64,000 bases of DNA from Pacificimonas pallii (GCF_019204005.1 NZ_JAGSPA010000003.1:124001-188000); one strand, 5' to 3'; shown: positions 2,500-20,628, numbered from the stretch's first letter. A program made the numbers and translations. The notes: generated from the sequence alone by a model not told the origin.

Positions 2500-2570
2500 G
2501 AGCCATCCCTGATAATTTGCTCTCCACCGGCACAATCCACGCCCCGCGCCTCAATGAAGAGAGTTGATCG

Positions 2571-3745: not shown

Positions 3746-3905
3746 TCCGCGAAGCCTGGCTGGACGACATATGCGTCCGGCATAACGAGTGTTGCGCCAT
3801 CCATCATTCATATTGCGGCGGGCATCCACGCCCGCTTCGTAACGGGGGGCGTGTGGTGCTAGGACGCACGGATTGCGACATGGGGGAGGACTGGTCTTGT
3901 CATAT

Positions 3906-4571
3906 ATGAATAACTTCACGCGGCGGACCATGCCGCACATTCTTGGCGCCGGGCTCTTGCTCCAGGCCTGCTCCGTGTCGGTGCCGACCGACAAGCAGGC
4001 CGACAATGTCGTCGTCGCGGATTTGCCGCAGGTCGTTCTTGATACCTCGGCAGGTGAGATCGTGCTGGAAGTCGACAGCAAACGCGCGCCCGTCACTGCC
4101 GCCAATTTTCTTGGCCATGTCGAATTGGGCGCCTATGACGGCGGCAAATTTTACCGGGCGGTGCGGCTCGACACCGATCGCGGCACACCGCCTATCGAGG
4201 TGATCCAGGGCGGCCGCGGTCTGGAGTTCGAGGACGATATTCCCGGCATCGCGCACGAACCGACCAGCAGCACCGGCCTGCGCCACCTCGACGGCACCAT
4301 CTCCATGTCGCGTAGCGAACCGGGCAGTGCGACGACGGAATTCTTCATCACCATCGGCGACCAACCCGCACTCGATGCTGGCGGGACGCGGGCCGCAGAC
4401 GGTCTCGGCTTCGCTGCATTCGGCCGCGTAATCCTCGGCATGGATGTCGTGCGCGCCATTCAGGCTATGCCCGCCAATGGTGCGGCGCCCGACCCTTATG
4501 TCGAGGGACAAATGCTTGACCCCGTCGTCACCATCACCACCGCTTCCCGCCGCAAGGGCGCTGCCAAATGA
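3906..4571 (+). CDS. Cyclophilin-type peptidyl-prolyl isomerase, lipoprotein
   Basis: Prolyl cis-trans isomerase of 221 aa, probably lipid-anchored in the periplasm. The N-terminus MNNFTRRTM followed by GAGLLLQAC is a lipoprotein signal with a lipobox. The cyclophilin domain starts near residue 40 (VVLDTSAGEIVLEVD, KFYRAVR, VIQGG) and includes TEFFITIGDQPALD and FGRVILGMDVVRAI. The ATG at 3906 lies 15 nt after GGGGGAGGA; an in-frame TTG at 3897 has better spacing (6 nt) and could be the true start. It overlaps the FKBP gene by 4 nt (ATGA), so the two isomerases are translationally coupled. Confidence 0.9.
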   Translation: MNNFTRRTMPHILGAGLLLQACSVSVPTDKQADNVVVADLPQVVLDTSAGEIVLEVDSKRAPVTAANFLGHVELGAYDGGKFYRAVRLDTDRGTPPIEVIQGGRGLEFEDDIPGIAHEPTSSTGLRHLDGTISMSRSEPGSATTEFFITIGDQPALDAGGTRAADGLGFAAFGRVILGMDVVRAIQAMPANGAAPDPYVEGQMLDPVVTITTASRRKGAAK

Positions 4572-5113
4572 GGATACCCGCTATGCCATGCTGCGCGATT
4601 GCCCCTTACGCTGCCGCCTGCGCACTGATCGCGCTAACGACCGCCTGCGCCCCGCGTCCCGCCAGGCCGGCGGCGACCGATGCGCCGCCCGCGGCAAGCC
4701 TTGATCCCGACAGCGCCTGGCTGCACGACAATGCGGCAAAGGTCGGCGTGCGAACGCTGCCCGGCCTGCAATATGAAATCGTCGAATCCGGCCCGGAAGA
4801 TGGCGTCCCTCCCACGCTCTCCGACGATGTCACTGTCCATTATGAAGGGCGGCTGGTGAACGGGGAGATATTCGATTCCTCCTTTGAGCGCGGCGAGCCG
4901 TCCACTTTCCCGCTTCGCCGCCTGATCCCGGGCTGGGGCATCGCCCTGCGCCTGATGCGCCCGGGCGATGAATGGATCGTCACCATCCCGCCGGAAATGG
5001 CCTATGGCGCGAAAGGGGTCGGCCCGATTCCGGGGGACAGCGTCCTGATCTTCCGCATCCGCCTGATCGAACACAGCCCGACGCCCAAGACTCCGTCTCC
5101 CCCCGAGGAATGA
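4568..5113 (+). CDS. FKBP-type peptidyl-prolyl isomerase, lipoprotein
   Basis: Second isomerase of the pair, 181 aa. A signal segment ending ALTTAC gives a lipobox cysteine, so this protein too should be membrane-anchored on the periplasmic side. A Pro/Ala-rich linker leads to one FKBP_C domain (about residues 85-168) with VTVHYEGRLVNGEIFDSSFERG, a PLRRLIPGW segment and a PEMAYGAKGVGPIPGDSVLIF ending, all hallmark FKBP active-site regions. It lacks the dimerisation domain of FkpA/Mip proteins. The start overlaps the cyclophilin stop. Confidence 0.92.
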   Translation: MRIPAMPCCAIAPYAAACALIALTTACAPRPARPAATDAPPAASLDPDSAWLHDNAAKVGVRTLPGLQYEIVESGPEDGVPPTLSDDVTVHYEGRLVNGEIFDSSFERGEPSTFPLRRLIPGWGIALRLMRPGDEWIVTIPPEMAYGAKGVGPIPGDSVLIFRIRLIEHSPTPKTPSPPEE

Positions 5114-5308
5114 TTGGGCAGTTCCCTTATCGTGTGAACCCGATGGGGTAGCGGACCGCCAATCTACTTGTGGACCGGCTTCGCGCCGCTCGGAGTTCGC
5201 CTTCCGCATTCCCTCGGGGGCATCTCGACATGAAATTCCGGATTTATTCTCTTTTTTTCCTAAAGCTTTGCGATCATCACAGTCTCGCCGCCAGTTCAAA
5301 CATTGATG

Positions 5309-5324
5309 AAACCGTGAACGGTTT
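5309..5324. promoter_or_regulatory. Inverted repeat upstream of second TonB receptor
   Basis: AAACCGT-GA-ACGGTTT is a perfect 7-bp-arm inverted repeat followed by two further T. It lies 85 bp before the receptor ATG at 5410 in a 296-bp spacer with no gene. It could be an operator, perhaps for the response regulator encoded downstream; that assignment is inference. Confidence 0.35.
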
Positions 5325-5409
5325 TTCAGCGATGCGAGCCCCATTCAATCTTTGTGCAAGCAACATGCGTCAGCCATGTTCAATCATAATTGTCAGGGGG
5401 ACTTCCGGA

Positions 5410-8298
5410 ATGAAAAACAAGTTAAAAGAAAACGCACCGATGGGCGTGTGCGCCGCACTTCTAGCTACGTCATTCTTGGCAGTTGGTGGGATCACGCCTG
5501 CTTTGGCTCAGGCAATACCGGAAACGACAGAAAAGGATGAGCCGGAAGAGGTCATCGTGGTTACGGGCTCGCGCCTCGAAGGCGTGGTCTCGACGTCCCA
5601 AACCATTACCATCGACAAGACTGAGATCGATGCGCGGGGATATAATAGTGTCGAGGATATCCTTTCCGGGCTCCCGCAGAATTTCAATTCCATCAACAGC
5701 GCGACGACCAGTCTTGCGGGCACTGGACAGCCGGGCAGTAGCGTCGGCAACGCGCAGCGGTTCGGTGGCCAGTCGGCAGCAAATTTGCGTGGGCTGGGTG
5801 AAAACAACGTCCTGGTTCTTGTAAACGGCCGCCGTCAGGCCTCCTCGGCAAGTATCGAATTCGAATCGCTGGGGCGTGTTGGCGCGGTCAACCTGTCGAC
5901 CATTCCCTTCGCGGCTATCGAGCGGGTCGAAATATTGCTCGACGGGGCGAGCTCCATTTACGGTTCCGACGCCATTGGCGGCGTCATCAATTTCATCCTG
6001 AAGCGCGATTTTTCCGGCTTTGAAATCTCCGGCCGCCACGAAATTGGAAAGAATGGGGGCGATTCCACAACGATCGATGCTCTCTTCGGCACAAGCTGGG
6101 GTACCGGCAACATCACCGTGAGCGGCAGTTGGCGGCGCGAGGATCCCGTTTCCACCGCGAAAGCTGGCTTCACGACTCTCGACAGATCGGCGCTCGGAGG
6201 CGTGGACGGGCGTCAATTCGGACAGCCCGCCCTGATTTATCTGCCATCTGACGACTTTAACTCAATCGGCCAATTGGCGCTGGACGATGATGGAACCACA
6301 CCTTTGACAGCGGCTGATCTGGCTGGGGCGACGGGTAGGTTGATCTCACCCACGGCAACGGTGGATACCGTACAGCCCTTCTTCGGCGCGGAGGGCGAGA
6401 ATTGGTCGACCACCGCAACCTTCGAGCAGCATTTTGGTGACCGTCTCAGGGTTTATGCGGATGCCCAGCTTTCAAAGGATCGGTCGCTCGTGATCTATCC
6501 GTCGGTCGGATATATTTATTCGTTCTCATTGGCTGATGACGATTATGGCAGACTGCTGGTCATTCCCACGACCAACGCTTTCAACGACACGGGGCAGGAC
6601 CTTCTGATTGAGGCCGTTCTGGAACGCGAATCATTGGAAGGTATCGCGCCGGAATCCGAGCGTATGACTTCCGATTTGCGTTATGGAGGCGCAGTGGGAT
6701 TCGAATATCAGATTTCGGATACATGGTCGGCGGATATTTCCGCGGCCATCAGCAGAACCGAAACCGACTATGACAACGATTATTACCTGCTCAATCTCAG
6801 GAAACTTCAGGAACTCGCCAATAGCAGCGACCCGGCGGTTGCATTCAATCCATTTGGCAACGGCACGGCACAGGTCGATCTGACGAGCGTATTCGACACC
6901 GAAAGCGGGCCGGATTCCCTCGATCAGAATTACGTCACGTCCGTAAAGACGTTGCAGGCCACTTTCAAAGGCGAGTTGTTCGATCTGCCGGGGGGCCCTG
7001 TTCGCACGGCGGTCGGCGGCGAACTTCGCTGGGAGTCCATGACGTTTTCGGACAGGAACGTTTTCGGTTCCGGTGATACCCGGGGTATCTTCGCTGTCGC
7101 CTCGCCGAAACGTGAACTGGCGGCTGCTTATGCCGAACTTAGCGTTCCGCTGGTCGGCCAGGCGAACGATGTCCCCCTTATCGACAGTCTCGAGATCAAT
7201 CTGTCGGGCCGTTACGACAGCTATTCTTCAAAAGTGACAACGCCCGACACGACTATCGACAATCAATATAATGAATTCAGTCCAATGATCGGCGTGGCCT
7301 GGTATCCCATACGCGGATTGAAAATTCGCGGCAATTGGAGCCGTGCATTTCGTGCGCCGACCATAACACAGGTGTTTCAGGCGCGCCGGTTAAGTGTGAC
7401 GTACAGTCCCTTTGTTGCATATAACTTCATTCTTGATGATCCGTTTCTTCCAGACGGCGTAACCGATCCAGCTGCGGTCGCACCGCCATTGGAACTCTAC
7501 AATGGCTCGAACAATAATCTTAAAGGTGAAACGTCCGAATCCTGGTCTGTCGGCGCCCATTGGAATTTTGACTTCCTTGATAGCGCTTATATCAGCGTGA
7601 ATTTTAACGACATCACAATCAGAAATCAGATTTCGGGAACCTACAGTATCGTTCGCGATCCCGAGACCTGGTTGGCCGGTGGCTTTGGTCCGAACGGCCC
7701 TGCCAATAGCGTCGAGCGTAATTCTGAAGGGTTTATCACCGCGATCAATTCGATACCGTTCAACATCAACGGGACAGAAAGCCAGTCACTGGATCTGGGC
7801 GCAGGCTTCGGCGTCCATACCGATGTCGGCCGCCTGTTCTTCGACTGGTCGGCAACGCATACGATCAAAACCGAGCGCGATGCTCTGGGTGTGGTTTCGC
7901 GTTTGAACGACACCGATATTGGCCTACCGAGCTGGGCGCATACTTTTACGCTGCGCTGGGACGCAGAAAAATACGGTGCCGCTCTGACGATCAATCATAC
8001 CGGATCATACGACAATCTGGCAGGTACGGCTAACATACTCAGCTTCCGCAGCAAACGCGTCAATTCCCGCTTCGTCGATGAAAATGATCTGTACGACAGG
8101 GTCGATTCCTACACGACGGTCGACTTGACGGGTCGCTATAAATTCGAATCCTTGGGAGCGGAAATTTCTGCTGGTGTGATCGATCTCTTTAACGCGGAAT
8201 TTCCTTACTATAATAATGTTTCCGGTGCGCCGTTTGATCTTCGTCACGTCGATCCGCGGGGTCGGCGCGTATTCGTGAAGTTGAGCAAGCGATTTTAG
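5410..8298 (+). CDS. TonB-dependent receptor
   Basis: Outer-membrane active importer, 962 aa. The ATG at 5410 follows a purine-rich AGGGGGA; the longer in-frame reading from 5170 has no ribosome site. The signal peptide ends PALAQ, followed by EEVIVVTGSRL (TonB-box region), a plug with VLVLVNGRRQ and EILLDGASSIYGSDAIGGVINFILKRDF, then a barrel ending in VFVKLSKRF with terminal Phe. There is no STN signalling domain. It is the first gene of a co-directional run with thioredoxin-fold, two-component, DsbD-like, cytochrome and M16 peptidase genes. Its DNA looks AT-richer than the flanking genes. The substrate is unknown. Confidence 0.95.
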   Translation: MKNKLKENAPMGVCAALLATSFLAVGGITPALAQAIPETTEKDEPEEVIVVTGSRLEGVVSTSQTITIDKTEIDARGYNSVEDILSGLPQNFNSINSATTSLAGTGQPGSSVGNAQRFGGQSAANLRGLGENNVLVLVNGRRQASSASIEFESLGRVGAVNLSTIPFAAIERVEILLDGASSIYGSDAIGGVINFILKRDFSGFEISGRHEIGKNGGDSTTIDALFGTSWGTGNITVSGSWRREDPVSTAKAGFTTLDRSALGGVDGRQFGQPALIYLPSDDFNSIGQLALDDDGTTPLTAADLAGATGRLISPTATVDTVQPFFGAEGENWSTTATFEQHFGDRLRVYADAQLSKDRSLVIYPSVGYIYSFSLADDDYGRLLVIPTTNAFNDTGQDLLIEAVLERESLEGIAPESERMTSDLRYGGAVGFEYQISDTWSADISAAISRTETDYDNDYYLLNLRKLQELANSSDPAVAFNPFGNGTAQVDLTSVFDTESGPDSLDQNYVTSVKTLQATFKGELFDLPGGPVRTAVGGELRWESMTFSDRNVFGSGDTRGIFAVASPKRELAAAYAELSVPLVGQANDVPLIDSLEINLSGRYDSYSSKVTTPDTTIDNQYNEFSPMIGVAWYPIRGLKIRGNWSRAFRAPTITQVFQARRLSVTYSPFVAYNFILDDPFLPDGVTDPAAVAPPLELYNGSNNNLKGETSESWSVGAHWNFDFLDSAYISVNFNDITIRNQISGTYSIVRDPETWLAGGFGPNGPANSVERNSEGFITAINSIPFNINGTESQSLDLGAGFGVHTDVGRLFFDWSATHTIKTERDALGVVSRLNDTDIGLPSWAHTFTLRWDAEKYGAALTINHTGSYDNLAGTANILSFRSKRVNSRFVDENDLYDRVDSYTTVDLTGRYKFESLGAEISAGVIDLFNAEFPYYNNVSGAPFDLRHVDPRGRRVFVKLSKRF

Positions 8299-8310
8299 GA
8301 CCGTCCTGAG

Positions 8311-8350
8311 CGGCCCGGAGGGTTTCAATTCTGAAAACTCGGGCCGTTTT
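8311..8350 (+). terminator. Intrinsic terminator or attenuator after TonB receptor
   Basis: CGGCCCG (8311-8317) pairs with CGGGCCG (8340-8346) and TTTT follows. The inner sequence can extend the hairpin (GTTTCA against TGAAAAC). It lies 12 nt after the receptor stop and 60 nt before the next gene, so it probably reduces read-through and sets a lower level for the downstream genes. Confidence 0.65.
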
Positions 8351-8409
8351 CTGGCAAGGGGCCGCCCGCTTTTGCCGGGCACACTATTTGATCCAAAGGA
8401 GATCATAAC

Positions 8410-9654
8410 GTGACGTTTTTGAATCGCATTGCGATTGGCGTATTTGTAGTTCTTGCCGCGCTCTCCGGGTGTGATCGGGCCCCAGTTACCGACACGGGAC
8501 AAGGCGGCGACACGGCTTTTGTCGAACCCGTTGCGGGTGACTATACGCTGACGATCAGAACCTCTGGATTTCCCGAGGGCTCCGAAGTGACGATTTATAA
8601 ACCGGCCCCTGTGACCAGTCCGGAGGCTGTGATCTTCATCCACGACAGGCAGCCTGTAGAAGAGCCGGTCATGACCTTTAACGGGTCGGTCGATGAGCCG
8701 ATGATCGCATCCATTGATATCAAGCCCCCAAGCGGCAGCGATGTGCGCTATCAACGATTTGGCTTCGTTCTCGAACCGGGAAATATTGACGTAATGGTCA
8801 ATGCGGAAACCCACGAGATAACCATCGAGGGCGGTGCGTATAACGACCAGACTGTCAACAGTTGGAAGCGTCACCCAGCCTATTTAGCGCTGGAGCGCGA
8901 CGCCAAGGAAGTCGACGATCAATATTATGCCTGGTATCAGAAAAACCGGCACATAGAGACGGGTCATCCAGAATTTGAGAAACAACTGGAAGATCTGCGC
9001 GTAAAAAAGGAAGATCTCAGGCACGAAATTCTCGCCGATATCATCGAAGGCACTGCCGATCCCTATGCGAAGCTTCACGCACTCGTTCAGGATCGAAAAT
9101 TGTCTGAGTCGGAGTATCTGGCGGGGCTCATAGAGTTGGAACCGCAATTGAAATATAGTGAGCGGTGGCAAGTCTACAAAGGTCGGATTGAAAATAGAAT
9201 CAAAGCGTTGGAGGCGCAAAGCGGCGTCGGCGTTGGCACGCAAATCAAGGATTTCGAAGCCAATCATCTGGACGGGCGCAAATTTCAACTGTCGGACGTG
9301 CTGGGCACGAAAGACTATATTCTGGTTGAATTTTGGGCATCATGGTGTGGCCCCTGTCGCGCGGAAATCCCGCACATGAAGCAGGCTTATGCGGAATATG
9401 CCGACAAGGGTTTTGAAATCCTCTCATTTTCACTCGATCACGAGATGGAAGCTTGGGAAGACGCCTCCATTCAGGAAGACCTTCCGTGGATCAACACAGG
9501 CGACCTGAAAGCCTTCACGAGCCCCGTCGCAAAAATGTACGGTGTTTTGGCAATCCCGCGTAACTACCTTGTGGATGGCAGCAATGGTGAAATCGTCGCC
9601 ATGGACCTGCGCGGAGACGATCTGGATACCAAATTGGAGGAGCTGCTGAAGTAG
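8410..9654 (+). CDS. TlpA/ResA-like thioredoxin lipoprotein with DUF4369-like N-domain
   Basis: Periplasm-facing thiol-disulfide protein of 414 aa. A lipoprotein signal with lipobox LSGC (Cys 21) is followed by a beta-rich region resembling DUF4369 (about 35-150), a charged helical stretch (150-270) and a redoxin domain (275-414). The redoxin domain has FWASWCGPCRAEIP (Cys313/Cys316) and a cis-proline region VLAIPRNYLVD. The GTG start at 8410 is preceded by AAGGAG. The DUF4369-plus-thioredoxin layout is best known from Bacteroidetes, where such genes often accompany SusC-type receptors; here it follows a TonB receptor. A reducing role toward a partner in this locus is likely; the partner is not known. 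Confidence 0.85.
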   Translation: MTFLNRIAIGVFVVLAALSGCDRAPVTDTGQGGDTAFVEPVAGDYTLTIRTSGFPEGSEVTIYKPAPVTSPEAVIFIHDRQPVEEPVMTFNGSVDEPMIASIDIKPPSGSDVRYQRFGFVLEPGNIDVMVNAETHEITIEGGAYNDQTVNSWKRHPAYLALERDAKEVDDQYYAWYQKNRHIETGHPEFEKQLEDLRVKKEDLRHEILADIIEGTADPYAKLHALVQDRKLSESEYLAGLIELEPQLKYSERWQVYKGRIENRIKALEAQSGVGVGTQIKDFEANHLDGRKFQLSDVLGTKDYILVEFWASWCGPCRAEIPHMKQAYAEYADKGFEILSFSLDHEMEAWEDASIQEDLPWINTGDLKAFTSPVAKMYGVLAIPRNYLVDGSNGEIVAMDLRGDDLDTKLEELLK

Positions 9655-9695
9655 TTTCATGCAGTCACGCACTGAAAGCTGGGGGTGACGGGTTA

Positions 9696-10370
9696 ATGCG
9701 TCTATTGCTGGTCGAGGATGAGGCAGAACTCGCGACCGTCGTCGCTCGACTGTTGAGCGCTGAGAATTACGTGGTCGACCATGCCCCCGACCTGGAAACC
9801 GCGTGGGAAGCGGTTTGTCTCACAGATTATTCTCTCGTCCTGCTGGACCGGCGACTGCCAGACGGCGATGGTCTTGAACTTATCAGGCGAAGCAAGCGTC
9901 TGTCGATCCCGCCCCGTTTTCTCGTTCTGTCCGCCCTGGGGGATGTCGAGGATCGCGTACAGGGACTCGACGAAGGGGCCGGGGATTATGTCGTCAAACC
10001 GTTCGTTCCGGAGGAATTGCTGGCCCGCATTCGGGCGGAGCTAAGGGTACCAGCCGCTGAACCGGCACAACGGGTGCGGTCCTTTGGTCGCCTTCAATAT
10101 GATGCAAGCCTACGGAGCTTCTCGGTGGAAGGACAAGTCGTTGTCATAAGAAGGCAAGAACTCATCATCCTCGAAAAACTTTTCGACAACGCAAATCGTG
10201 TCGTTACCCGCGAAAGCATCGAAAATGCGTTATATGGCTTTAATGACATGCCTGAAACCGTGACAATCGAACCGCAAATCTCGCGTCTGCGTAAATCTCT
10301 GAGCGCTCATGCAACGGGTGTCGAAATCCATTCGGTTCGTGGTTTAGGTTATATGCTTAAATGCTCTTGA
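9696..10370 (+). CDS. OmpR/PhoP-family response regulator
   Basis: Two-component transcription factor of 224 aa. The receiver (1-115) has the acidic pair VEDE near the N-terminus, phospho-acceptor Asp51 (VLLDRRLPDGDG) and the conserved Lys in YVVKPF. The C-terminal winged helix (130-224) has RRQELIILEKLF and SRLRKSL..VEIHSVRGLGYML. It overlaps the kinase gene by 10 nt, so the two are surely a pair. The probable targets are the neighbouring receptor and redox genes. Confidence 0.93.
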   Translation: MRLLLVEDEAELATVVARLLSAENYVVDHAPDLETAWEAVCLTDYSLVLLDRRLPDGDGLELIRRSKRLSIPPRFLVLSALGDVEDRVQGLDEGAGDYVVKPFVPEELLARIRAELRVPAAEPAQRVRSFGRLQYDASLRSFSVEGQVVVIRRQELIILEKLFDNANRVVTRESIENALYGFNDMPETVTIEPQISRLRKSLSAHATGVEIHSVRGLGYMLKCS

Positions 10371-11791
10371 AGACGCTCAACTTTCCTTTGCGCCAGAACA
10401 AACCGTATCGGTTGCAACGACGTATTCTTTCCCTTTCGATCATCTTCATGACGATCGTGTTCGTAACGCTGACAATCGGCGTCCCGATTTTCAATCACCT
10501 CACGCTGCATGATTGGGTCGATGAGGAGATTAATCGGGTTGCCTTCAGCCTTCAAAGCCTTTTGCTCGAAGAAGTAAGCACTGAGGAAAAGGTCCGGTCG
10601 AGGGACATTCTAGAAGGCGTCGCCGCGGAAAATCCGGCTTTCTGGTACTATGCCGAAGGCGGTAACAGAGTGATTCACAGTGCTGGCAACAAATTGCCGC
10701 TGTACCGGGACAGAGTTACCGCCTCGACCACCATGGTGGATTATGATGGAAATCTGCAATGCATGAATGAAGGCGTATATTTTCAATTCCAGGGCCAGCG
10801 GCCAGGGATGACTACGGTATGGCGCATCGATTGTGACGACCGACATTTATATGTCGAGTTCGGGGGTGTCGTGGAAGCTCCATTATTGTTCTGGGATAAG
10901 GTTCTTTATGAATATTCCCAGTCAAATCGGACAAAAAGATCGTTTCTACCCTTCGTTATTCTAACGGTGTTTCTCACTGGATTCATTATTGTTGCATTTC
11001 GCAGCCTGATGTTCCGCGTAACGGAAGTTGCCGCAAATGCCAGACGGATCGGATCGGACGGGGAATATCGACAACTCCCGACCGAGCGGCTTCCGGCGGA
11101 GATTCTACCTCTGGTAGAGGCCTTCAACGATGCCATGATCCGCTTGCGAAAGGCGAAGGATCGACAGGACTTTTTCCTTGCGGCGGCGGCGCATGAAATC
11201 CGCACCCCGCTCACCATCTTGCGAACCAGGATCGCCGGTTTTCCAAAAAGCACATTGAAAGAGGAGGTTGCCGCCGACCTTGACCGAGTCGCGTCACTTG
11301 TGTCTCAATTATTGGCTTTGTCACGGCTGTCGTCGAGCGAGATCGTCGCGGAAGATGTCGATTTCGTGGATGCAATCAAACGCATCTGCATCAATCGGAC
11401 TCCCTTGGCCATTGAACAGGGCCGCGACCTGTCCTTCACACTCAAGGGTGCCCCTGTGAGTGTGTTGGGTGACCGCCGACATATCCAGAGCGCGGTCGCG
11501 AACCTGATCGACAATGCGATTATGCACACCCCTCCGGGAACTACGGTGCAGATTACGATCGGCGGCGCTTCTGTATCTGTTTGCGATGAAGGACCCGGCG
11601 TGGACGAAGGCACCAAAGCCCAGATTTTCGAGCCGTTTTTCAAACATCCGCCCAACAAGAAAGGCCAGGGTCTCGGATTGGCATTGGTCAAGGAAATCAT
11701 GCAATTGCACGGAGGGCGCGTGACGGTCGATTCCGCCCCCGGTGGAGGGGCATGTTTCAAGCTGACCTTTCGCGAAAAATCGACCCAATAA
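10361..11791 (+). CDS. Sensor histidine kinase
   Basis: Inner-membrane sensor of 476 aa. TM1 is about 22-45 and TM2 about 195-217, flanking a periplasmic domain of roughly 145 residues whose only cysteines are Cys134 and Cys158. A HAMP-like linker follows, then a HisKA domain with His278 (AAAAHEIRTPLTIL) and a HATPase domain with N, G1 and G2 boxes (NLIDNAIMHTPPGTT, DEGPGV, GQGLGLALVKEI). The cognate regulator overlaps upstream. The signal is unknown; the cysteine pair plus the thioredoxin-like and DsbD-like neighbours make redox or thiophilic metal sensing worth testing. Confidence 0.92.
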   Translation: MLLKTLNFPLRQNKPYRLQRRILSLSIIFMTIVFVTLTIGVPIFNHLTLHDWVDEEINRVAFSLQSLLLEEVSTEEKVRSRDILEGVAAENPAFWYYAEGGNRVIHSAGNKLPLYRDRVTASTTMVDYDGNLQCMNEGVYFQFQGQRPGMTTVWRIDCDDRHLYVEFGGVVEAPLLFWDKVLYEYSQSNRTKRSFLPFVILTVFLTGFIIVAFRSLMFRVTEVAANARRIGSDGEYRQLPTERLPAEILPLVEAFNDAMIRLRKAKDRQDFFLAAAAHEIRTPLTILRTRIAGFPKSTLKEEVAADLDRVASLVSQLLALSRLSSSEIVAEDVDFVDAIKRICINRTPLAIEQGRDLSFTLKGAPVSVLGDRRHIQSAVANLIDNAIMHTPPGTTVQITIGGASVSVCDEGPGVDEGTKAQIFEPFFKHPPNKKGQGLGLALVKEIMQLHGGRVTVDSAPGGGACFKLTFREKSTQ

Positions 11792-11893
11792 TTCCTGCGC
11801 AACCCCTGTGCAAACTTCCTTCCGTAGCAACGCGCACGAAACAAGGGCGACCTTGCCGACTTCAAGAGCGCCGCGTGAACGAAGGTATGATGA

Positions 11894-14038
11894 ATGATGC
11901 CACCGGCAAGCGAACCACGACTGCGTATCATGGAACCGGCGATCCTGTTCCTTATGGCGATGCTTTTCGGTGCGATTGGTACTCACGCCGCAACCGCCCA
12001 GGAAATGAAGACCAGCCTATCGACCGTTGAACTCGTCAGCGAACAGTCGACCGTACCATCGCAAGGCGGCGAGATCACGCTCGGCTTCCGGCTGACGCCG
12101 GATGAAGGGTGGCATGCCTATTGGACCAATCCCGGAGATGCCGGGCTCGCGGTTGAGATCGAATGGGATCTTCCGAGCGGATTTTCCGCGGCACCGCTCG
12201 AGTTTCCCACACCTCACGTCATTCCATTCGGCCCTCTTATAACCTATGGCTACAACGAGGGAATTCTTGTTCTTTCTCGGATTAAAATCCCCTCGGATCT
12301 GGCACAGGGGCAGCGCGTGCGGATTGGCGGAACGGCCAATTGGATCGTCTGTGATGACCAGACATGCGTGCCGGAAAGTGCCACTGTATCGACCGTGCTG
12401 GAGGTGGGCGATGGAAAGAAAAACCCGGCCACGACGGACAGATTCGAGGCTGCACGCGAACTCTTGCCTGACGCGGTCGATTGGCCTGCCACGCTTTCCG
12501 TCATGGACAACAAAGTTCGGCTTTCGATCAACCTTCCGGACGGCATAACCGATCCGCAATCCCCCTATCTGTTCGTTGGCGAAAAACGCTTGGTCAAATA
12601 TGAAGACCAGCTTGTCTCCTATCGTCCCGGCGAGATCTTCTTCGATTTCGAGGCTGCCCGCGGAGCGGATGACATCGACCAGACCGGCTTCGTCCTTTCC
12701 TTCGAGGACGCCGACGGTAACCGGCAGGCGATCGCGGGACATACCGGAACACCAGGGCGCGCATCGGGCGGCCCGGCAGACAGCGTGGCTGTAGATACGT
12801 CTGGTTTGCTGACGGCACTTCTGTTTGCCTTTTTCGGCGGCATCATCCTGAACCTGATGCCATGCGTTCTGCCTGTGCTCAGCATCAAGGCGTTGAGCCT
12901 CGTCAAGCTATCACATGGCGACCGCAGCCTCGCGCGGGAGAGTGGTTGGCTCTATACGGCGGGCATATTGATATCCTTCGCATTGATCGGCATCGGCCTC
13001 GTCGCGCTGCGCTATGCAGGGCAGGCGGCGGGCTGGGGTTTCCAGATGCAATATCCGCTGGTCAACCTGTCATTGGCGCTCCTGATGGTCGGCGTTGCCT
13101 TGAACCTGTTAGGCGCGTTCGAGATTGGCGGCTCATTGATCGGCGCCGGTCAAACGCTCACCAAAGGCGGAGAACGAAAAAGCGCGTTCTTTACGGGTTT
13201 CCTGGCAGTTGTCGTCGCAACGCCGTGCACGGCACCGTTCATGGCCGGGGCGCTGGGTTTCGCGATGACGCAGCCTGCCGCGGTGTCTCTGGCAATTTTT
13301 CTGTCCCTGGGGTTCGGCCTCGCCCTGCCCTATCTGCTTCTCAGCCATTACCCGGGCCTTTCCAGGTTCATGCCCAAACCAGGTCCCTGGATGGAGAGTT
13401 TCAAACGCATTCTGGCTTTCCCGATGCTACTGACAGCCATCTGGCTTCTGTGGGTTCTGGGGAAGCAATCCGGGGTCAACGCGCTGGCTCTGGGCCTTGT
13501 CGCCGCAACATTGCTCGCATTCGGACTGTGGTGCTGGGGCCGCTCGGCATACTCGGCGCGCAAAGCGTGGTGGTGGATTGTATCCCTGCTGGCGCTGGGC
13601 GGCGTTATTTACACGTCTTATCTGGTGTATACTCATGCACAGGCGGGCAGTACCGCTTCGACCCGACAGGGCGGCGAGTCGCGGACGCTTGGGTCGATGG
13701 ACTTGGAACATTTCTCATCGACGAAGGTCGCCGATTACGTTGAAGCGGGCCAGCCGATATTCGTTTACTTCACAGCGGATTGGTGTGTGAGTTGCAAGGT
13801 GAATGAGCGCGTCGCACTCGCCTCGGACGAAGTGGGCAAGTCTTTTGAAAAGCGCGGCATCAAGGTGATCGAGGGCGACTGGACCAACCAGAATCCGGAA
13901 ATCACGGAATGGCTTCAGAGGTTCGGCAGGATCGGCGTTCCTTTATATCTCTACTTTCCAGAAGGAAGCAGTTTGAACGAGCCCGTCATCCTGCCGCAAC
14001 TCCTCACTCCAAAGCTCGTCATCGAACTGACTTCGTGA
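11894..14038 (+). CDS. DsbD/ScsB-type thiol-disulfide interchange protein
   Basis: Inner-membrane reductant transporter of 714 aa that carries electrons from cytosolic thioredoxin to periplasmic thiols. After a signal segment (about 12-36), the periplasmic N-domain (37-290) has Cys153 and Cys158 in NWIVCDDQTCVPES. The membrane domain has about eight helices with the two DsbD cysteines in NLMPCVLPVLSIK (Cys324) and VATPCTAPFMAG (Cys445). The C-terminal thioredoxin domain has ADWCVSCKVNE (Cys631/Cys634). GAAGG precedes the start by 8 nt. The N-domain type points to ScsB rather than classical DsbD. It probably reduces the upstream thioredoxin-like lipoprotein. Confidence 0.9.
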   Translation: MMPPASEPRLRIMEPAILFLMAMLFGAIGTHAATAQEMKTSLSTVELVSEQSTVPSQGGEITLGFRLTPDEGWHAYWTNPGDAGLAVEIEWDLPSGFSAAPLEFPTPHVIPFGPLITYGYNEGILVLSRIKIPSDLAQGQRVRIGGTANWIVCDDQTCVPESATVSTVLEVGDGKKNPATTDRFEAARELLPDAVDWPATLSVMDNKVRLSINLPDGITDPQSPYLFVGEKRLVKYEDQLVSYRPGEIFFDFEAARGADDIDQTGFVLSFEDADGNRQAIAGHTGTPGRASGGPADSVAVDTSGLLTALLFAFFGGIILNLMPCVLPVLSIKALSLVKLSHGDRSLARESGWLYTAGILISFALIGIGLVALRYAGQAAGWGFQMQYPLVNLSLALLMVGVALNLLGAFEIGGSLIGAGQTLTKGGERKSAFFTGFLAVVVATPCTAPFMAGALGFAMTQPAAVSLAIFLSLGFGLALPYLLLSHYPGLSRFMPKPGPWMESFKRILAFPMLLTAIWLLWVLGKQSGVNALALGLVAATLLAFGLWCWGRSAYSARKAWWWIVSLLALGGVIYTSYLVYTHAQAGSTASTRQGGESRTLGSMDLEHFSSTKVADYVEAGQPIFVYFTADWCVSCKVNERVALASDEVGKSFEKRGIKVIEGDWTNQNPEITEWLQRFGRIGVPLYLYFPEGSSLNEPVILPQLLTPKLVIELTS

Positions 14039-14045
14039 TCCGGTG

Positions 14046-14519
14046 ATGACAAAGAGGAATGTCCTCGTCCTGTTAAGTCCGATCCTCGTGATTGCCGCGC
14101 TTATCGTGGCGAACGGATTCCATATTCCAGAAAGATCCGCTCCCGAACCGGACGGAACCGGCATCGAGCGCGCAACGATTACCCACGGCAGATTATTATA
14201 TTCGGGTCACTGCGCATCCTGCCACGGAGAGAATCTTGAGGGAGAGCCGAATTGGCGAACCCGCAAGCCGAACGGCCGGTTGCCCGCGCCGCCTCATGAT
14301 GAAACGGGGCACACCTGGCATCATTCCGACGAGATGTTGTTCAATCTTACGAAATACGGAATGGCCGCGACCATCGATGCGGACGGCTATGAATCGGACA
14401 TGCCTGCTTTCGAACATACTCTGAGTGACAAGGAGATCGAGGCCGTCCTTGCCTTTATAAAAGACAGCTGGCCCGCCGATGTGCAGACGACACAAGAACG
14501 CTTGAACGAGAAACGCTGA
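14046..14519 (+). CDS. Membrane-anchored c-type cytochrome
   Basis: Monohaem cytochrome of 157 aa. A hydrophobic N-terminal helix (about 6-23) is either a membrane anchor or an uncleaved signal. The haem site is GHCASCHG (Cys56, Cys59, His60), and MPAF near residue 121 is the probable axial methionine. A GTG three bases upstream is an alternative start. It follows the DsbD-like gene by 7 nt and so is in the same transcript. It may accept or pass electrons linked to the thiol chemistry of this locus; the direct partner is not visible. Confidence 0.87.
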   Translation: MTKRNVLVLLSPILVIAALIVANGFHIPERSAPEPDGTGIERATITHGRLLYSGHCASCHGENLEGEPNWRTRKPNGRLPAPPHDETGHTWHHSDEMLFNLTKYGMAATIDADGYESDMPAFEHTLSDKEIEAVLAFIKDSWPADVQTTQERLNEKR

Positions 14520-14598
14520 ACCGTTTTCACGGGCTCTGCAATCTCGATGCAAGCTTGCCGTGATTGCTCGCTCCTGATGCTTCAATCGGGAGAATATC

Positions 14599-17340
14599 AT
14601 GAAAAAGTCGGTTCAGTTGGCACTTCTCGCCGCGTCGTGCATGGGGCTGCCCGTCGCGGGATTCGCGCAGGACAATGCGACCGCGAGCGAAATCCCGACG
14701 CTTGACATGAGCTACGAGAAGTTCGTGCTCGATAACGGACTTACCGTGCTCGTGCACAGCGACCATTCGGTGCCGACCGTCTTTGTCGGTCTGTGGTACG
14801 GTGTCGGTTCCAAAGACGAGCCGACCGGAAAGACAGGGTTTGCCCATCTTTTCGAACATCTGATGTTCAAGGGGTCGGAGCATCACGATGGCAGTTTCAT
14901 GACCACCCTGATCGCTGCGGGTGCGACTGATTTCAACGGCACGACAAGCACGGATCGCACGAACTATTATCAAATGGTGCCTTCTGGCGCCCTCGACACG
15001 GTGCTGTGGATGGAAAGCGACCGCATGACCTATCTTCTTGGGGCAATTACGGAGGAAAAGCTCGTCGAGGAACGGGAGGTCGTGAAAAACGAGCTGCGCG
15101 ATCGCATCAATCAACCTTACGGCAAAGTGCCCGAAAGAATTTCCGCTGGACTATATCCGGTGGGGCATCCGTACAGGCATCCCGTGATCGGTTCGATGGA
15201 AGACCTCGCCAATGCGTCGATAGAGGATGTGAAAGGCTGGTTCAGGAAGTATTACGGTGCGACCAATGTCGTTCTCGTTCTGGCCGGTGACATTTTGGCT
15301 GAGGACGCAAAAGAAAAAGCCGTCAGATATTTCAGCGCTGCGCCTCCCGGCCAGCCTTTGGCGAAGATGGAGCGGTGGCTGCCGGTCCTCAATGGCAAGA
15401 AGATCGAAGAGATGTACGACCATGCGCCGCAGCCGGTGGTCAGCCGGAACTGGGTCATCCCTACCAATGGAGAGCGCGACACGACGCTTCTCCAGCTTGC
15501 TTCCGCGACCTTGGCGGAAAGCGAGAATTCGCCATTGCGGAAAGTGCTGGTGGATGACCTTCAGCTCGCGCAATCGCTATACAGCTATGCTTCGGGCAAC
15601 GAATTATCTGGCGTTTTCAATATTACCGTCATGGCCCGCCCCGGTGCTTCGATTGAGCAAATATCCAATGTGATCGACGAACAGGTCGCCGCTTTCCTCA
15701 ATGACGGGCCGTCTTCTCAGGCCGTGGCCAACGCGAAGCTGTCCCGCGCCATGGGATCGATCTCATCCATGGAGCATAAGGGCAATATCGCAGGCACCCT
15801 GGCCGAGGGGCAGCTCTATCACGGCGATCCTGCCTTTATCGAAAAGCAGATGGAATGGATTGACGCCGCCAATGCCTCCTCCGTACAGGCCGCTGCGCGC
15901 CGGTGGCTGACTGACAATTATTATCAGATCAACGTCAGGCCATTTCCAACACTTGCCGCCGGACCGGAATTGGCCGATCGTTCCGTTCAGCCCGCAATTG
16001 TCGATAGCGGAAGCCTCAGCCTGCCCGATCCGGTAGAATCCCGTCTGTCGAACGGTGCTCGTCTGTTTGTTATATCAACGCAGTCCCTGCCGCTTGTCGA
16101 CGTGCGTATCGATTTCGACACCGGATCAAAGGATGATCCGGACGGAGCCTTGGGAATTGCTTCGGCAGTGTTCAACATGATGTCTCGCGGGACAGCGTCA
16201 CGCTCGGCTTCTGAACTCGCCGAAGCGATGGAGACGAATGGATCGCAAGTTTCCGCTGTGGCAGGCCGGGACAGCAGCACAATATCGTTTCAGGCGCTTT
16301 CATCGAATCTGCCGATGGCGCTCGACATCGCGCAAGACATGATTATCAGCCCGGCCTTCCCCACCGACGAGCTCGAAAAACGCAAACTGGACTGGCGCAC
16401 TGCCGTCAGCGCGAGCGAGAGCGATCCGGCTGCCAATGCCGCACTGTTGCTGGAACGCGCCATTTTCGGCGCCGGGTCGAGACGCGGACGGATCAGCAAG
16501 GCCGAAGATGTCGACGCGATCAGTCGCGATGGGATAGTAGACTTCTACAACCGCCAACTTTCTCCAGACAAAATGACGGTTTACGTTATCGGAGATGTCG
16601 ACGTTGATGAAGCGACCGCACAAATCGAACGCACGCTAGGTTCGTGGCAGGCCCGGTCGACGCCCAATCCCCGGCGGGCTGATACCGATACAGTTCAGAG
16701 GCCTCGCATCATTCTTGTCAATCAACCCGGTGCCGTCCAGACGACGATCCACGTCGGGCACGCATTGTCACCGTTCACCCGGGAGAATGAAGATTATTAC
16801 GGTCTTATCAACAGGGTATTTGGCGGCGGCTTGGATGCTCGGGTCAATATGAATCTGCGCCATGACAAGGGCTGGTCCTACGGAATTGGCTCTAAACTGA
16901 AAAAGGCGGTCGACGAGCATCAGCTCTTCTCCGTGTCCGGCACGGTTCAGATGGACAAGACCGCGCCGGCAATGACTGAACTGCTGTCCGAGTTTCGCGC
17001 GATGGCGGGAGAACGCCCGATTGACGAGCTGGAGCTAAGACGGGCGCGTGAATCGACGATCCGGTCCCTTCCTGCCCGCTATTCCGCCAATAGTGCGCTT
17101 TTGCGTTCCTGGGCCAATCTTCGACAGCTTGGACTGCCGTTTGATCATGACGAACGCATGCGTGAACGTATCGGGTCGATAACCACCGATGAATTGAACA
17201 CCGTCGCTGCCGAAATGATCGAACCTGAATCGCTCAGCTGGGTCATCATCGGCGATCTTTCGAAAATCGAACCTGATATTCGCGCGCTCGATATGGGTGA
17301 AATAGAGGTCTGGGACAGTTACGGCGAGAGAGTGCGATAG
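14599..17340 (+). CDS. M16 (pitrilysin-like) zinc metallopeptidase, two-half form
   Basis: Exported peptidase of 913 aa. The signal peptide ends VAGFAQ. The N-terminal half carries the inverted zinc motif HLFEH (His83, Glu86, His87) with a downstream glutamate in EEREVVKNELRD. The C-terminal half lacks the zinc motif but keeps the substrate-contact region (FGGGLDARVNMNLRHDKGWSYG). This is the usual active/inactive pair folded into one chain. GGGAGA lies 6 nt before the ATG. M16 enzymes degrade peptides enclosed in a chamber, so a role in processing a peptide brought in by the TonB receptor fits, but is inference. Confidence 0.92.
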   Translation: MKKSVQLALLAASCMGLPVAGFAQDNATASEIPTLDMSYEKFVLDNGLTVLVHSDHSVPTVFVGLWYGVGSKDEPTGKTGFAHLFEHLMFKGSEHHDGSFMTTLIAAGATDFNGTTSTDRTNYYQMVPSGALDTVLWMESDRMTYLLGAITEEKLVEEREVVKNELRDRINQPYGKVPERISAGLYPVGHPYRHPVIGSMEDLANASIEDVKGWFRKYYGATNVVLVLAGDILAEDAKEKAVRYFSAAPPGQPLAKMERWLPVLNGKKIEEMYDHAPQPVVSRNWVIPTNGERDTTLLQLASATLAESENSPLRKVLVDDLQLAQSLYSYASGNELSGVFNITVMARPGASIEQISNVIDEQVAAFLNDGPSSQAVANAKLSRAMGSISSMEHKGNIAGTLAEGQLYHGDPAFIEKQMEWIDAANASSVQAAARRWLTDNYYQINVRPFPTLAAGPELADRSVQPAIVDSGSLSLPDPVESRLSNGARLFVISTQSLPLVDVRIDFDTGSKDDPDGALGIASAVFNMMSRGTASRSASELAEAMETNGSQVSAVAGRDSSTISFQALSSNLPMALDIAQDMIISPAFPTDELEKRKLDWRTAVSASESDPAANAALLLERAIFGAGSRRGRISKAEDVDAISRDGIVDFYNRQLSPDKMTVYVIGDVDVDEATAQIERTLGSWQARSTPNPRRADTDTVQRPRIILVNQPGAVQTTIHVGHALSPFTRENEDYYGLINRVFGGGLDARVNMNLRHDKGWSYGIGSKLKKAVDEHQLFSVSGTVQMDKTAPAMTELLSEFRAMAGERPIDELELRRARESTIRSLPARYSANSALLRSWANLRQLGLPFDHDERMRERIGSITTDELNTVAAEMIEPESLSWVIIGDLSKIEPDIRALDMGEIEVWDSYGERVR

Positions 17341-17431
17341 GCACTTCCACGAGAAGCGCTGGTTTGCGTCCGTTTTTCGGGCTCGCCGCCGGAGGTACCG
17401 AAGGAGGGCTGGACCGAACGGGCGATCATCA

Positions 17432-17453
17432 AGGGGCCGGTTTTCCGGCCCCT
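17432..17453. terminator. Bidirectional hairpin between convergent genes
   Basis: AGGGGCCGG-TTTT-CCGGCCCCT is a 9-bp perfect stem placed between the M16 gene (ends 17340) and the convergent cytochrome gene (ends 17476). No long T-run follows on either strand, so efficiency is uncertain. Confidence 0.55.
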
Positions 17454-17475
17454 CTCCTCGTCGGCGATCTTTGGG

Positions 17476-18057
17476 TCAGGCGGGATTTTGCAGATATGCG
17501 ATGACGTCCGCGCGTTTTTGCGCATCCTTCAGACCTGGAAACACCATCCTTGTCTTCGGCATGACCCGCCGCGGGTCTTCCAAGTAGACATAGAGTTGTT
17601 CGGGCGTCCAGGTGAGTTCGCTATTCTTATTGGCTTTCGAATAGTTAAAATTGGGGACGGACCCGGCCGCTTGGCCGACGATACCGGCAAGCGATGGCCC
17701 GACACGGTTGACGCCGGGTTCAAGCACATGACAGGCGCGGCATTGTGCGAACACGGCCTTACCCGCGGCAGCATCTCCGGTCAGGCTGGCGAAGGCGACG
17801 CCATCCTTTGTTGTCATGTCACCCGGTTCGGCAGCATCCGGTTCGGCGCTTGCCATTTCAGGTTCTTCCGTCGCGGCGGGGTTTTCGATCGTCGGAGCGG
17901 ATTTTTCGGGCAGCGCGGCTTCAACGACCGCGGCATCTTCCGTGGCGGAGGTTTCAATGGCCGTCGATGTCTCTTCGCCGCCGCTGTCGGAACAGGCGAC
18001 TGTCAATGCTGAAATTGCAACCGCGCCCATCAATGTTTTCATGACCGTCATACCCAT
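17476..18057 (-). CDS. Cytochrome c lipoprotein (class I)
   Basis: Electron carrier of 193 aa, probably lipid-anchored in the periplasm: the signal ends ALTVAC with lipobox Cys22. A Glu/Ala/Pro-rich spacer (25-85) leads to a cytochrome c domain with CRACH (Cys106, Cys109, His110), RVGPSLAGIVG and an axial-methionine region VMPKTRM. AAGGA lies 7 nt before the ATG at 18057; an ATG two codons later also has a good AGAGGA. The frame is open 54 codons further upstream, but that part has no signal-peptide logic. It converges on the M16 gene. Confidence 0.88.
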   Translation of the reverse strand: MGMTVMKTLMGAVAISALTVACSDSGGEETSTAIETSATEDAAVVEAALPEKSAPTIENPAATEEPEMASAEPDAAEPGDMTTKDGVAFASLTGDAAAGKAVFAQCRACHVLEPGVNRVGPSLAGIVGQAAGSVPNFNYSKANKNSELTWTPEQLYVYLEDPRRVMPKTRMVFPGLKDAQKRADVIAYLQNPA

Positions 18058-18450
18058 TCCTCTATCCTTCAAGGCTCTGAAATCCACTATTCCATGGTTG
18101 AACCGCAGGTCAAATACTCCCTTCGGTTTCATCGCAAAAAGCAATTCGGATCGCGATTTATCCTTTTCCCTCAACATCGTTCTCCGCAAGCACCGAATAA
18201 GGAAGAAGTTGAAGGGCAATCGCGGGGCAAAGTGATGGTGCCCGCGCGCATATTCGACTGATATGGAAATGCTCTGAGCCCGTCGCGGTCACGGAAACGA
18301 TGCGGCGGCCGCCATGGAGAAGTCCGCTGAACAGGAATGCCGGATACCGTTTCGGCACCCATGGGTCCTGGCGAACTTCGCGATTGGCATATCAGGCGCA
18401 AATCTGTTTAGTCGCGCCGTCATCTTCATCGGGATATTGGGAATTGGTTC
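18058..18450. other. 393-bp spacer between divergent cytochrome and acylase genes
   Basis: It must carry the promoters of both neighbouring genes. I see no convincing coding frame, strong hairpin, long repeat or recognisable factor site in it. Confidence 0.5.
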
Positions 18451-20628
18451 ATGCGTTTTGTGAAATGGGGCCTTGCGGTTCTTGCCATTATCGCCGCTGG
18501 CCTCGCTATCTGGCTATGGGATCCGCTTCCCTCCGCCGATGTCGACGATCTGATGGCCCGGTCGGAAGGTTATAACGTTGAAATCATTCGGGACAATTGG
18601 GGCGTTCCGCACATTTACGGCGACCGTGACGCCGATGTCGCCTTTGGTATCGCCTATGCCAATGCCGAGGATGACTTCCAGACCATCCAGGCCAGCACGG
18701 CCGCAACCCGCGGCGATCTTGCACGATATCAGGGTTCTGGCGCGGCAAAGACGGACTACCTGGTCAGCCTTTTTCGTACCTGGGAAACCATTGCCGAGCG
18801 TTATGAAACCGATGTTCCGCAAGATGTAAAAATCTATGCCGAGGGCTATGCCGCCGGCCTCAACCGCTATGCCGCCGAAAATCCCGATGAAACATGGGAC
18901 GGCCTGACCCCGTTCACCGCCGAGGACCTGATCGCGGCAACGGCTTTCAAAACGCCGTTCTTCTATGGCTTCGACAGCACCCTGCTTGCACTCTATGCCG
19001 ATGACCGCGAAGCCGAAATCGCCCTCGACCCGAGCGGCGGCGCGCAGGCATTCCACACGCGCGCCACCCGTGCGCCTGAACGCGGCTCCAACGCCATCGC
19101 CGTCGCCCCGGCACGATCCGGCGACGGCCACACCCGGCTCATTATCAATTCTCACCAGCCCCTCACCGGTCCTGTCGCCTGGTGGGAAGCGCATGTTGAG
19201 TCGGGCGAAGGCATGAATATGTCCGGCGGCCTGTTCGCGGGCAGCGCCTTTGTCCTGCACGGTTTCAACGATAATCTGGGCTGGGCCAATACAGTCAGCA
19301 AGCCGGATCTGGCGGATATCTACCGCCTCACGGTGAACCCTAAGAATAGGATGCAATATCGGCTCGATGGCGAATGGCGCGATTTTGAAGTCGCCGAAGC
19401 GAAAATCCGTATCAGACTATTCGGCCCCTTTGCCTACACTGCGAAACGCAATGTCATGCGAACCGCCCATGGACCCGTTATCGAAGGTCCGACGGGCACC
19501 TTTGCCGTCCGCTATGCAGGTATGGACGAAATCCGCCAGTTTGAGCAGTATTTCCGGCTCAACCATGCGCAGACTTATGAGGAATTCATGGCAGCGATGT
19601 CGATGACAGCACTGCCAAGCATCAATTATATTTATGCGGACAAGACCGGTCGCATCGCTTTCCTGCATAATGGCCAATATCCCGATCGCCTGGAGGGCTG
19701 GGACTGGTCGAAAGACCTGCCCGGCGACCGCTCGGACCTGATCTGGGCCAGCTACCGCCCGTTCGGCGACGCGCCGCTGCTGACTGACCCGCAGTCCGGT
19801 CTCATCTTCGATGCGAACAACACGCCTTTTTCAAAGACCGATGGCCCGGACAATCTGCGCGCGGAGAGTTTTCCGCGGTCGATGGGATTGCAGACGAACG
19901 AAACCAACCGCTCCCTGCGCCTGGCAGAGCTTAGCTCTGCACATGAGATTATCGACCGGGAGACGCTGCTCAGGATCAAGTTCGATACCGCCTATTCCGA
20001 ATCCTCTGTCGCAGCGAAGCTGGTTGCCCGGATTCTGGCAAAGGACTGGTCCGGCGAACCGGCCTACGCGAAGGCCGCGGAGCATCTCGCGGGGTGGGAC
20101 CTTCAAACGGACATCAACAACACGCACGCTGCCCTCGGCGTGCTCAGCGTCATGCCGGAAATTACCGGGCAGTTTACCGGCATCGATGCGCCCGCGCCGG
20201 AGCAGGCCTTCCGCGAGGCGGTTGACTATCTGATCCGGCATCATGGCCGCATCGACGTCCCCTGGGGCGAGGTCAATCGGCTCAGCCGCGGCGACCAGAG
20301 CTGGCCACTGGACGGTGCGCCCGACATCTTGCGCGCCGCATATCCCGCTGAAATCGCTGATGACGGTATGTTGCGGGCCGCGACCGGCGACAGCTGGATT
20401 GCGGTGGTGGAGTGGGACGAGGAGGGAAACATGTCGGCGGATGTCATCAATCAGTTCGGCGCGGCTACTGTCGATCCGTCGTCTCCGCATTATGCGGATC
20501 AGGCCCCCTTGTTCACGCGGAAGCAATTCCGCCCTGCCCTGCGCGCCCGGGCGGATATCATGGCGAATGCAAAGTGCATCTACTATCCCGGCAAGACCAC
20601 ACAGGAACAGTGCAGCACCGCAAACTAG
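18451..20628 (+). CDS. Penicillin-acylase-family (Ntn) amidohydrolase
   Basis: Amide hydrolase of 725 aa made as a precursor that cleaves itself into two chains. An N-terminal hydrophobic helix (4-23) directs export or anchoring. The alpha-chain starts with VEIIRDNWGVPHIYGDRDADVAFGIAYA. The predicted nucleophile is Ser213 in ERGSNAIAVA, the new beta-chain N-terminus. Downstream are SPGG-like and N-rich segments typical of the S45 family (NDNLGWANTVSKPDLADIY). Family substrates include penicillins, acyl-homoserine lactones and cyclic lipopeptides; the sequence does not decide which. It ends 10 nt from the convergent aminotransferase. Confidence 0.92.
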   Translation: MRFVKWGLAVLAIIAAGLAIWLWDPLPSADVDDLMARSEGYNVEIIRDNWGVPHIYGDRDADVAFGIAYANAEDDFQTIQASTAATRGDLARYQGSGAAKTDYLVSLFRTWETIAERYETDVPQDVKIYAEGYAAGLNRYAAENPDETWDGLTPFTAEDLIAATAFKTPFFYGFDSTLLALYADDREAEIALDPSGGAQAFHTRATRAPERGSNAIAVAPARSGDGHTRLIINSHQPLTGPVAWWEAHVESGEGMNMSGGLFAGSAFVLHGFNDNLGWANTVSKPDLADIYRLTVNPKNRMQYRLDGEWRDFEVAEAKIRIRLFGPFAYTAKRNVMRTAHGPVIEGPTGTFAVRYAGMDEIRQFEQYFRLNHAQTYEEFMAAMSMTALPSINYIYADKTGRIAFLHNGQYPDRLEGWDWSKDLPGDRSDLIWASYRPFGDAPLLTDPQSGLIFDANNTPFSKTDGPDNLRAESFPRSMGLQTNETNRSLRLAELSSAHEIIDRETLLRIKFDTAYSESSVAAKLVARILAKDWSGEPAYAKAAEHLAGWDLQTDINNTHAALGVLSVMPEITGQFTGIDAPAPEQAFREAVDYLIRHHGRIDVPWGEVNRLSRGDQSWPLDGAPDILRAAYPAEIADDGMLRAATGDSWIAVVEWDEEGNMSADVINQFGAATVDPSSPHYADQAPLFTRKQFRPALRARADIMANAKCIYYPGKTTQEQCSTAN

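Follow-up and report, generated by a model that had tools for sequence, protein, structure and literature searches.

A seven-gene envelope block of Pacificimonas pallii as a candidate receptor-coupled thiol-reduction module

Background

The known import systems that combine a receptor with a protease act on proteins such as ferredoxin. A TonB receptor gene clustered with the gene of an M16 protease is the hallmark of protease-associated import, as in FusA/FusC of Pectobacterium and YddB/PqqL of E. coli (PMC6793856). The protease is a periplasmic two-repeat M16 protein, the distribution of the clusters is sporadic, and some of them include redox-active di-haem cytochrome c peroxidases (PMC6793856). 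How is a disulfide-bonded substrate opened before proteolysis? This defining paper leaves the question unaddressed, and neither thioredoxin nor disulfide terms occur in its text.

Reduction of envelope thiols is described in other systems. In Pseudomonas, the copper-responsive two-component system DsbRS controls dsbDEG (PMC10141476; PMC13101516). In Caulobacter, an ScsB-TlpA relay (Cho et al. 2012, cited in PMC5403849) offers, so far as the citing paper presents it, a precedent for electron transfer from a DsbD-type transporter to TlpA.

The locus described here touches on all of these systems. We analysed a stretch of 64,000 nt from Pacificimonas pallii (GCF_019204005.1, NZ_JAGSPA010000003.1:124001-188000), called the window below, in which coordinates count from the first letter. 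A block of seven genes occupies positions 5410-17340. A preliminary description of this DNA had found no named system to match such a gene set. That holds for the whole set, for which a search of openly licensed texts returned nothing, a weak piece of evidence. It does not hold for the parts, which are found in protease-associated import, in DsbRS-dsbDEG, and in copper clusters that contain ScsB/DsbD and cytochrome c.

Gene content of the block

ORF calls place the seven genes on the plus strand in one direction, and Pfam agrees with the identity proposed for each in the preliminary description (Table 1). The intergenic gaps are 111 bp between the receptor and TlpA genes, 41 bp between TlpA and the response regulator, 102 bp between the kinase and DsbD, 4 bp between DsbD and the cytochrome, and 79 bp between the cytochrome and the M16 peptidase; the response regulator and kinase genes overlap by 10 bp. 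A consensus scan of the gaps gave no terminator-like site on the plus strand. Because of the overlap and the 4-bp gap, the seven genes are likely cotranscribed as one operon; we go no further than likely because two gaps exceed 100 bp, and promoters could lie within these gaps.

Table 1 Genes of the block and the gene pair preceding it
Feature	Position	Strand	Support
Exported cyclophilin and FKBP prolyl isomerases, 4-bp overlap	3900..5113	+	ORF calls, Pfam
TonB-dependent receptor, 962 aa, Plug and beta-barrel	5410..8298	+	Pfam PF07715, PF00593
TlpA-like thiol-disulfide reductase lipoprotein, 414 aa, GTG start, N-terminal DUF4369, CGPC	8410..9654	+	Pfam AhpC-TSA, Thioredoxin_8, DUF4369
OmpR-family response regulator	9696..10370	+	Pfam Response_reg and Trans_reg_C
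Sensor histidine kinase, two TM segments and periplasmic domain	10361..11791	+	Pfam HisKA and HATPase_c
DsbD/ScsB-type thiol transporter	11894..14038	+	Pfam DsbD_N, DsbD_TM, Thioredoxin_7; Cys pairs
Membrane-anchored mono-haem cytochrome c, GTG start	14043..14519	+	Pfam Cytochrome_CBB3
Exported two-repeat M16 zinc peptidase	14599..17340	+	Pfam Peptidase_M16 and M16_C

In the block TlpA, DUF4369 stands ahead of the CXXC redoxin domain, the arrangement of DUF4369-TlpA lipoproteins. Its lipobox is LSGC21, and the remaining two Cys form the active site C313GPC316. The DUF4369 match is weak, though at 26.1 bits above the Pfam cut-off of 25, and a six-frame genome search with this family gave no match at E<=0.001. 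The DsbD has the three-domain form of ScsB/DsbD transporters (DsbD_N, DsbD_TM and a C-terminal thioredoxin domain) with all three Cys pairs, C153/C158, C324/C445 and C631/C634, and one extra Cys; the best PDB match of its N-terminal domain is 6c29, a 'putative metal resistance protein' (E 7e-5). The cytochrome has the haem motif C57ASCH, and the M16 peptidase has the zinc motif H83LFEH in the first half of the protein. Exactly two Cys, C134 and C158, lie in the periplasmic domain of the kinase, and the mature receptor chain contains no Cys, 3 Met and 8 His. Predicted structures were of low quality for fold searches (pLDDT 42 for TlpA and 27 for the receptor).

Origin of the block

The block has a GC content of 55.3%, and its two flanks have 61.1% and 61.4%. 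GC3 lies at 0.54-0.68 in the genes of the block, compared with 0.71 +/- 0.06 in the 36 other genes of the window. The cyclophilin/FKBP pair upstream probably lies outside the block, since it does not share the composition shift and is separated by a gap of 296 bp. In a sample of 289 genomes of the class, the receptor has no relative at E<=1e-100 and the N-terminus of TlpA was found only in the window itself. A TlpA search of 121 genomes of the family matched the redoxin domain only, and the sensor part of the kinase was detected in none of 240 other family genomes. Relatives of the M16 peptidase in the family are only 33-39% identical. The same genome encodes a second DsbD (36-39% identical to that of the block) and, elsewhere, a second, distinct M16 peptidase (37%). 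Apart from a single proteobacterial genome, it is Bacteroidota that supply the best full-length relatives of TlpA in the plasmid collection.

The block looks horizontally acquired, since its GC content is lowered and the sampled relatives lack its receptor, its TlpA N-terminus and its kinase sensor. On account of these absences, too, the seven families, which the preliminary description had suggested seeking together in Sphingomonadales, are not conserved there as a full set. Would failure to find them together in relatives mark the block as a chance grouping, as had been supposed? The sampled relatives do lack these genes, yet subsets are adjacent in distant genomes, and therefore non-adjacency in relatives is not decisive.

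The surroundings of the block were also recorded. Just upstream, window positions 1-3745 hold a second TonB receptor gene, which lies on the minus strand, and a divergently oriented AraC regulator gene. After the block, positions 17476-21856 hold genes for a cytochrome c (minus), a penicillin acylase family hydrolase (plus) and an aminotransferase (minus). The acylase and aminotransferase were sought in congeners for an empty-site comparison; no close orthologues were found, the matches being distant or none.

Relatives of the block in distant genomes

To find TlpA relatives, we scanned 84,980 species genomes (GTDB contig collection) with degenerate peptides. The one close relative came from an uncultured Pseudomonadales MAG (OX638346.1, locus L034). 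Here TonB receptor, TlpA and DsbD genes follow each other on one strand in the same order as in the window, with one opposite-strand gene, which reads like an FG-GAP/VCBS-repeat protein, between TlpA and DsbD. The two DsbDs are 54% identical over 709 aa, against 34-42% over comparable lengths between the window DsbD and other proteobacterial DsbDs or the second DsbD of its own genome. In the tree the two form a 100/100 clade apart from other proteobacterial DsbDs, the ordinary ones of the family included. In the MAG DsbD (L034 12852-16127), a further redoxin domain is fused to the C-terminus (residues about 953-1076), and at the level of sequence this fusion is a link between DsbD and redoxin functions. 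The identity between the two receptors, 24%, does not clearly exceed that to unrelated receptors, and they are not callable as orthologous. No M16, cytochrome or two-component system gene stands beside the MAG module on its strand; after DsbD, on the other strand, come genes for a MerR regulator, a histidine kinase, a response regulator and cation efflux. Among the matches listed for other proteobacterial DsbDs, none has a receptor-TlpA-M16 set beside it.

Elsewhere in the MAG, two more TlpA relatives have different surroundings. After one (L079 9048-15510) come a 1146-aa protein, which matches Golvesin_C weakly, and an amidohydrolase; the other (L080 8095-10791) is followed by an aspartyl-protease/TPR-like protein.

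In the Scs family the comparison is mixed. The block has a TlpA-like partner, as in the Caulobacter relay so far as that is recounted in the citing paper, but its DsbD falls in its own clade with the MAG protein. A ScsC or peroxiredoxin partner is absent from the block, and ScsC from its neighbours too.

A second parallel comes from Bacteroidota, where the preliminary description had seen a likeness to loci of SusC-type receptors, DUF4369-TlpA proteins and M16 peptidases. The likeness is real: a plasmid of Spirosoma oryzicola (NZ_CP089539.1) carries FecR-SusC-SusD-TlpA(DUF4369)-cysteine synthase-DsbD-M16-M3, all on one strand, and so has these three families and DsbD in the order of the window. 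Unlike the window, it includes SusD, FecR, cysteine synthase and an M3 peptidase and is without the two-component system and the cytochrome. With identities of only 23-41% to the window proteins, the locus may have been assembled long ago or in parallel and need not be the same module. Ahead of the Spirosoma DsbD, a pair of small ORFs (L112 7749-8197) resembles a broken gene for a DsbD N-terminal domain and has no Pfam match. Other TlpA loci on Bacteroidota plasmids were left out of the comparison, since their neighbours, VKOR and peptidase-domain ABC exporters, suggest peptide export.

Since the composition of the block stands out and subsets of three and four of its genes recur in order in two unrelated genomes, the block is, as judged from these sequence comparisons, more than a chance grouping. 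We consider it probable that the DsbD-to-TlpA reducing relay and the TonB receptor, the core shared by these loci, serve one purpose.

Reductive import or copper defence

What might this purpose be? The substrate would be a disulfide-bonded peptide or a target of copper or oxidant stress. Two models had been put forward in the preliminary description, one of uptake, reduction and degradation of such a peptide and one of ScsB-like copper or oxidant defence. The first has gained from protease-associated import and from the recurrence of the core, the second from the copper clusters of the cytochrome and from DsbRS, so that each has support of its own.

Our preferred reading, with a probability of roughly 0.4, is that the block is an acquired, receptor-coupled envelope thiol-reduction module for reductive import and processing. 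The TonB receptor would import a Cys-containing polypeptide, either disulfide-bonded or a metal-thiolate, into the periplasm. There the lipoprotein TlpA would reduce it through the CGPC site, and DsbD would recharge TlpA with electrons from cytoplasmic thioredoxin, following the Caulobacter precedent as far as it is reported in PMC5403849. Once opened, the chain would be digested in the periplasm by the M16 chamber protease. Expression would be controlled by the two-component system in response to a periplasmic signal (substrate, metal or redox), and the membrane cytochrome c may join in a redox or metal step.

This reading is preferred because the receptor-TlpA-DsbD core is conserved and because M16 follows it in the one parallel with four families. 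It is further supported by the pairing of TonB receptor and M16 peptidase, the hallmark of protease-associated import, by catalytic residues that are preserved in all the enzymes, and by the immediate neighbours of the block, among which no copper-handling gene was seen. The sporadic distribution is also as in protease-associated import. The proteins themselves are of another type. The best PDB match of the M16 peptidase is the zinc peptidase 3amj (167 bits), ahead of FusC 6b03 (70 bits) and PqqL (45-47 bits); 3amj/3ami is the M16B heterodimer of a Sphingomonas. The PDB matches of the receptor at E<=0.01 (phmmer) are CirA, BtuB, enterobactin and haem receptors, with FusA absent among them. As the block receptor and M16 are not homologues of FusA/FusC in this sense, the block may, by analogy, work like protease-associated import without belonging to the FusA/FusC type. 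M16 loci of Pseudoalteromonas and Aeromonas have none of the thiol genes of the block alongside.

Several points weaken the import reading. Apart from the mismatch to FusA, FusC and PqqL, the block has genes neither for TonB/ExbBD nor for a peptide transporter of the inner membrane, the M16 and cytochrome genes are missing beside the MAG module, and identities to the MAG receptor and to the Spirosoma proteins are low. Moreover, the cytochrome and DsbD associate with copper clusters.

It is from the relatives of the cytochrome that the strongest rival arose, namely a copper or oxidant envelope defence, DsbRS-dsbDEG-like in logic, which we regard as almost as probable as reductive import. The kinase would sense copper or thiol oxidation (C134/C158) and induce DsbD and TlpA; these would return periplasmic thiols that are oxidised or miswired to the reduced state. 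The cytochrome would act in periplasmic copper redox chemistry, the M16 peptidase would clear damaged proteins, and the receptor would deal with a metal complex. The block cytochrome is 46-60% identical to cytochromes of copper-resistance clusters; its relatives have in common the long signature GENLEG.PNWR..PNGRLPAPPHDETGHTWHH...YESDMPAF. Five of six neighbourhoods of these relatives, on plasmids of Indioceanicola, Roseivivax, Phaeobacter, Martelella and Azospirillum, are copper-resistance clusters (copper oxidase, Cu ATPase, SCO, PCuAC or CueR). The sixth relative (L152) is not in a copper cluster; it lies beside a TonB receptor gene and PepSY-like genes, named by inspection. The Indioceanicola cluster reads MCO-DUF411-DsbD-cytochrome-SCO-PCuAC and thus has the DsbD-cytochrome pair of the block, the two genes overlapping by 1 bp. 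On a plasmid of Sphingobium sp. CFD-1 (L151 5464-10088), a TonB receptor gene stands directly upstream of DsbD, followed by OsmC-CueR-Cu ATPase. Copper-resistance clusters of Alphaproteobacteria are marked by a cytochrome c family whose long signature includes PAPPHD.TGHTWHH (L143 5926-8471; L144, L145, L146, L148); in one case its gene and that of DsbD form an overlapping pair.

The kinase points in the same direction, its top NCBIfam match being the heavy-metal sensor subfamily, below cut-off. The heavy-metal regulator subfamily is among the matches of the response regulator, also below cut-off. The MerR, kinase, regulator and cation-efflux genes after the MAG DsbD also favour the copper reading. 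In composition the inner four genes of the window (TlpA-RR-HK-DsbD, 8410-14038) are close to the copper-responsive DsbRS-dsbDEG, in which a two-component system stands beside DsbD and a DsbE/TlpA-type reductase (PMC10141476; PMC13101516). However, the block TlpA differs in having DUF4369 and a lipid anchor, receptor, cytochrome and M16 are added, and no DsbG/DsbC-like gene is present among the genes of 3000-21000. A plasmid of Pseudoalteromonas sp. HL-AS2 (L142 5562-12489) carries a divergent HK-RR pair, TlpA, DsbG and a TonB receptor; its kinase has a lone periplasmic Cys at position 82. Cys82 of DsbS is, we assume, the copper-binding residue. The Pseudoalteromonas TlpA has an N-terminal LGT-like membrane part, and the locus is DsbRS-like with a receptor.

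Against copper defence, the sensor of the block kinase has no similarity to that of this Pseudoalteromonas kinase, the nearest DsbS-like candidate though not P. aeruginosa DsbS itself. The window DsbD is 29-32% identical to the copper-cluster DsbDs of Indioceanicola and Phaeobacter and 37% to that of Sphingobium, as compared with 54% for the MAG protein, and since it is therefore not of the Indioceanicola/Phaeobacter copper-cluster lineage, this counts against the copper reading. Copper ATPase, multicopper oxidase, SCO, DUF411 and CueR, which belong to the copper clusters, were not seen near the block (genes of about 1-22 kb; Pfam and inspection). OprC is a copper receptor; the Cys-free mature chain of the block receptor, with its 3 Met, is unlike it, and OprC is absent among the PDB matches of the receptor (phmmer). 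Finally, the M16 peptidase is left unexplained, as a dedicated one occurs in none of the copper clusters examined.

Could the seven genes simply have arrived together on an acquired island, with no function in common beyond this co-transfer? A unit of receptor, TlpA and DsbD would then lie next to an independent two-component system, cytochrome and M16 peptidase. Every family is common by itself, no locus with all seven was found, the 102-bp and 111-bp gaps may hold promoters, and the last three components are not beside the MAG module on its strand. We nevertheless hold this to be improbable, given four families in the same order in Spirosoma, the recurring DsbD-cytochrome adjacency (Indioceanicola), the recurring association of a two-component system with TlpA and a TonB receptor (Pseudoalteromonas plasmid), and the strand and lowered GC common to all seven genes. 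A last reading is that DsbD and TlpA supply reductant, in the manner of CcmG/ResA, to apocytochrome or CuA sites, the neighbouring cytochrome being their client. Members of the TlpA and DsbD/CcdA families take part in the maturation of cytochrome c and CuA, and the cytochrome gene is tightly linked to DsbD. We nonetheless regard this reading as very unlikely, as no haem lyase or oxidase genes are nearby, the organism already has another DsbD, and the receptor and M16 peptidase would be left unexplained.

Significance

Import and copper defence need not be entirely separate, as a metal-thiolate polypeptide as substrate would unite the two readings. If the copper reading is true, a DsbRS-type copper/thiol response would be extended to sphingomonads, with a receptor and a protease added. 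If instead the preferred reading of reductive import is true, the genetic linkage of a receptor to a dedicated reducing relay would explain how disulfide-bonded substrates are opened, and the combination of a TonB receptor, a DUF4369-TlpA and the specialised DsbD clade would serve as a search signature. It gives a scenario, which we propose only tentatively, of a thiol-dependent branch of protease-associated import, scattered among Proteobacteria and Bacteroidota and placed under a two-component system that senses periplasmic thiols or metals.
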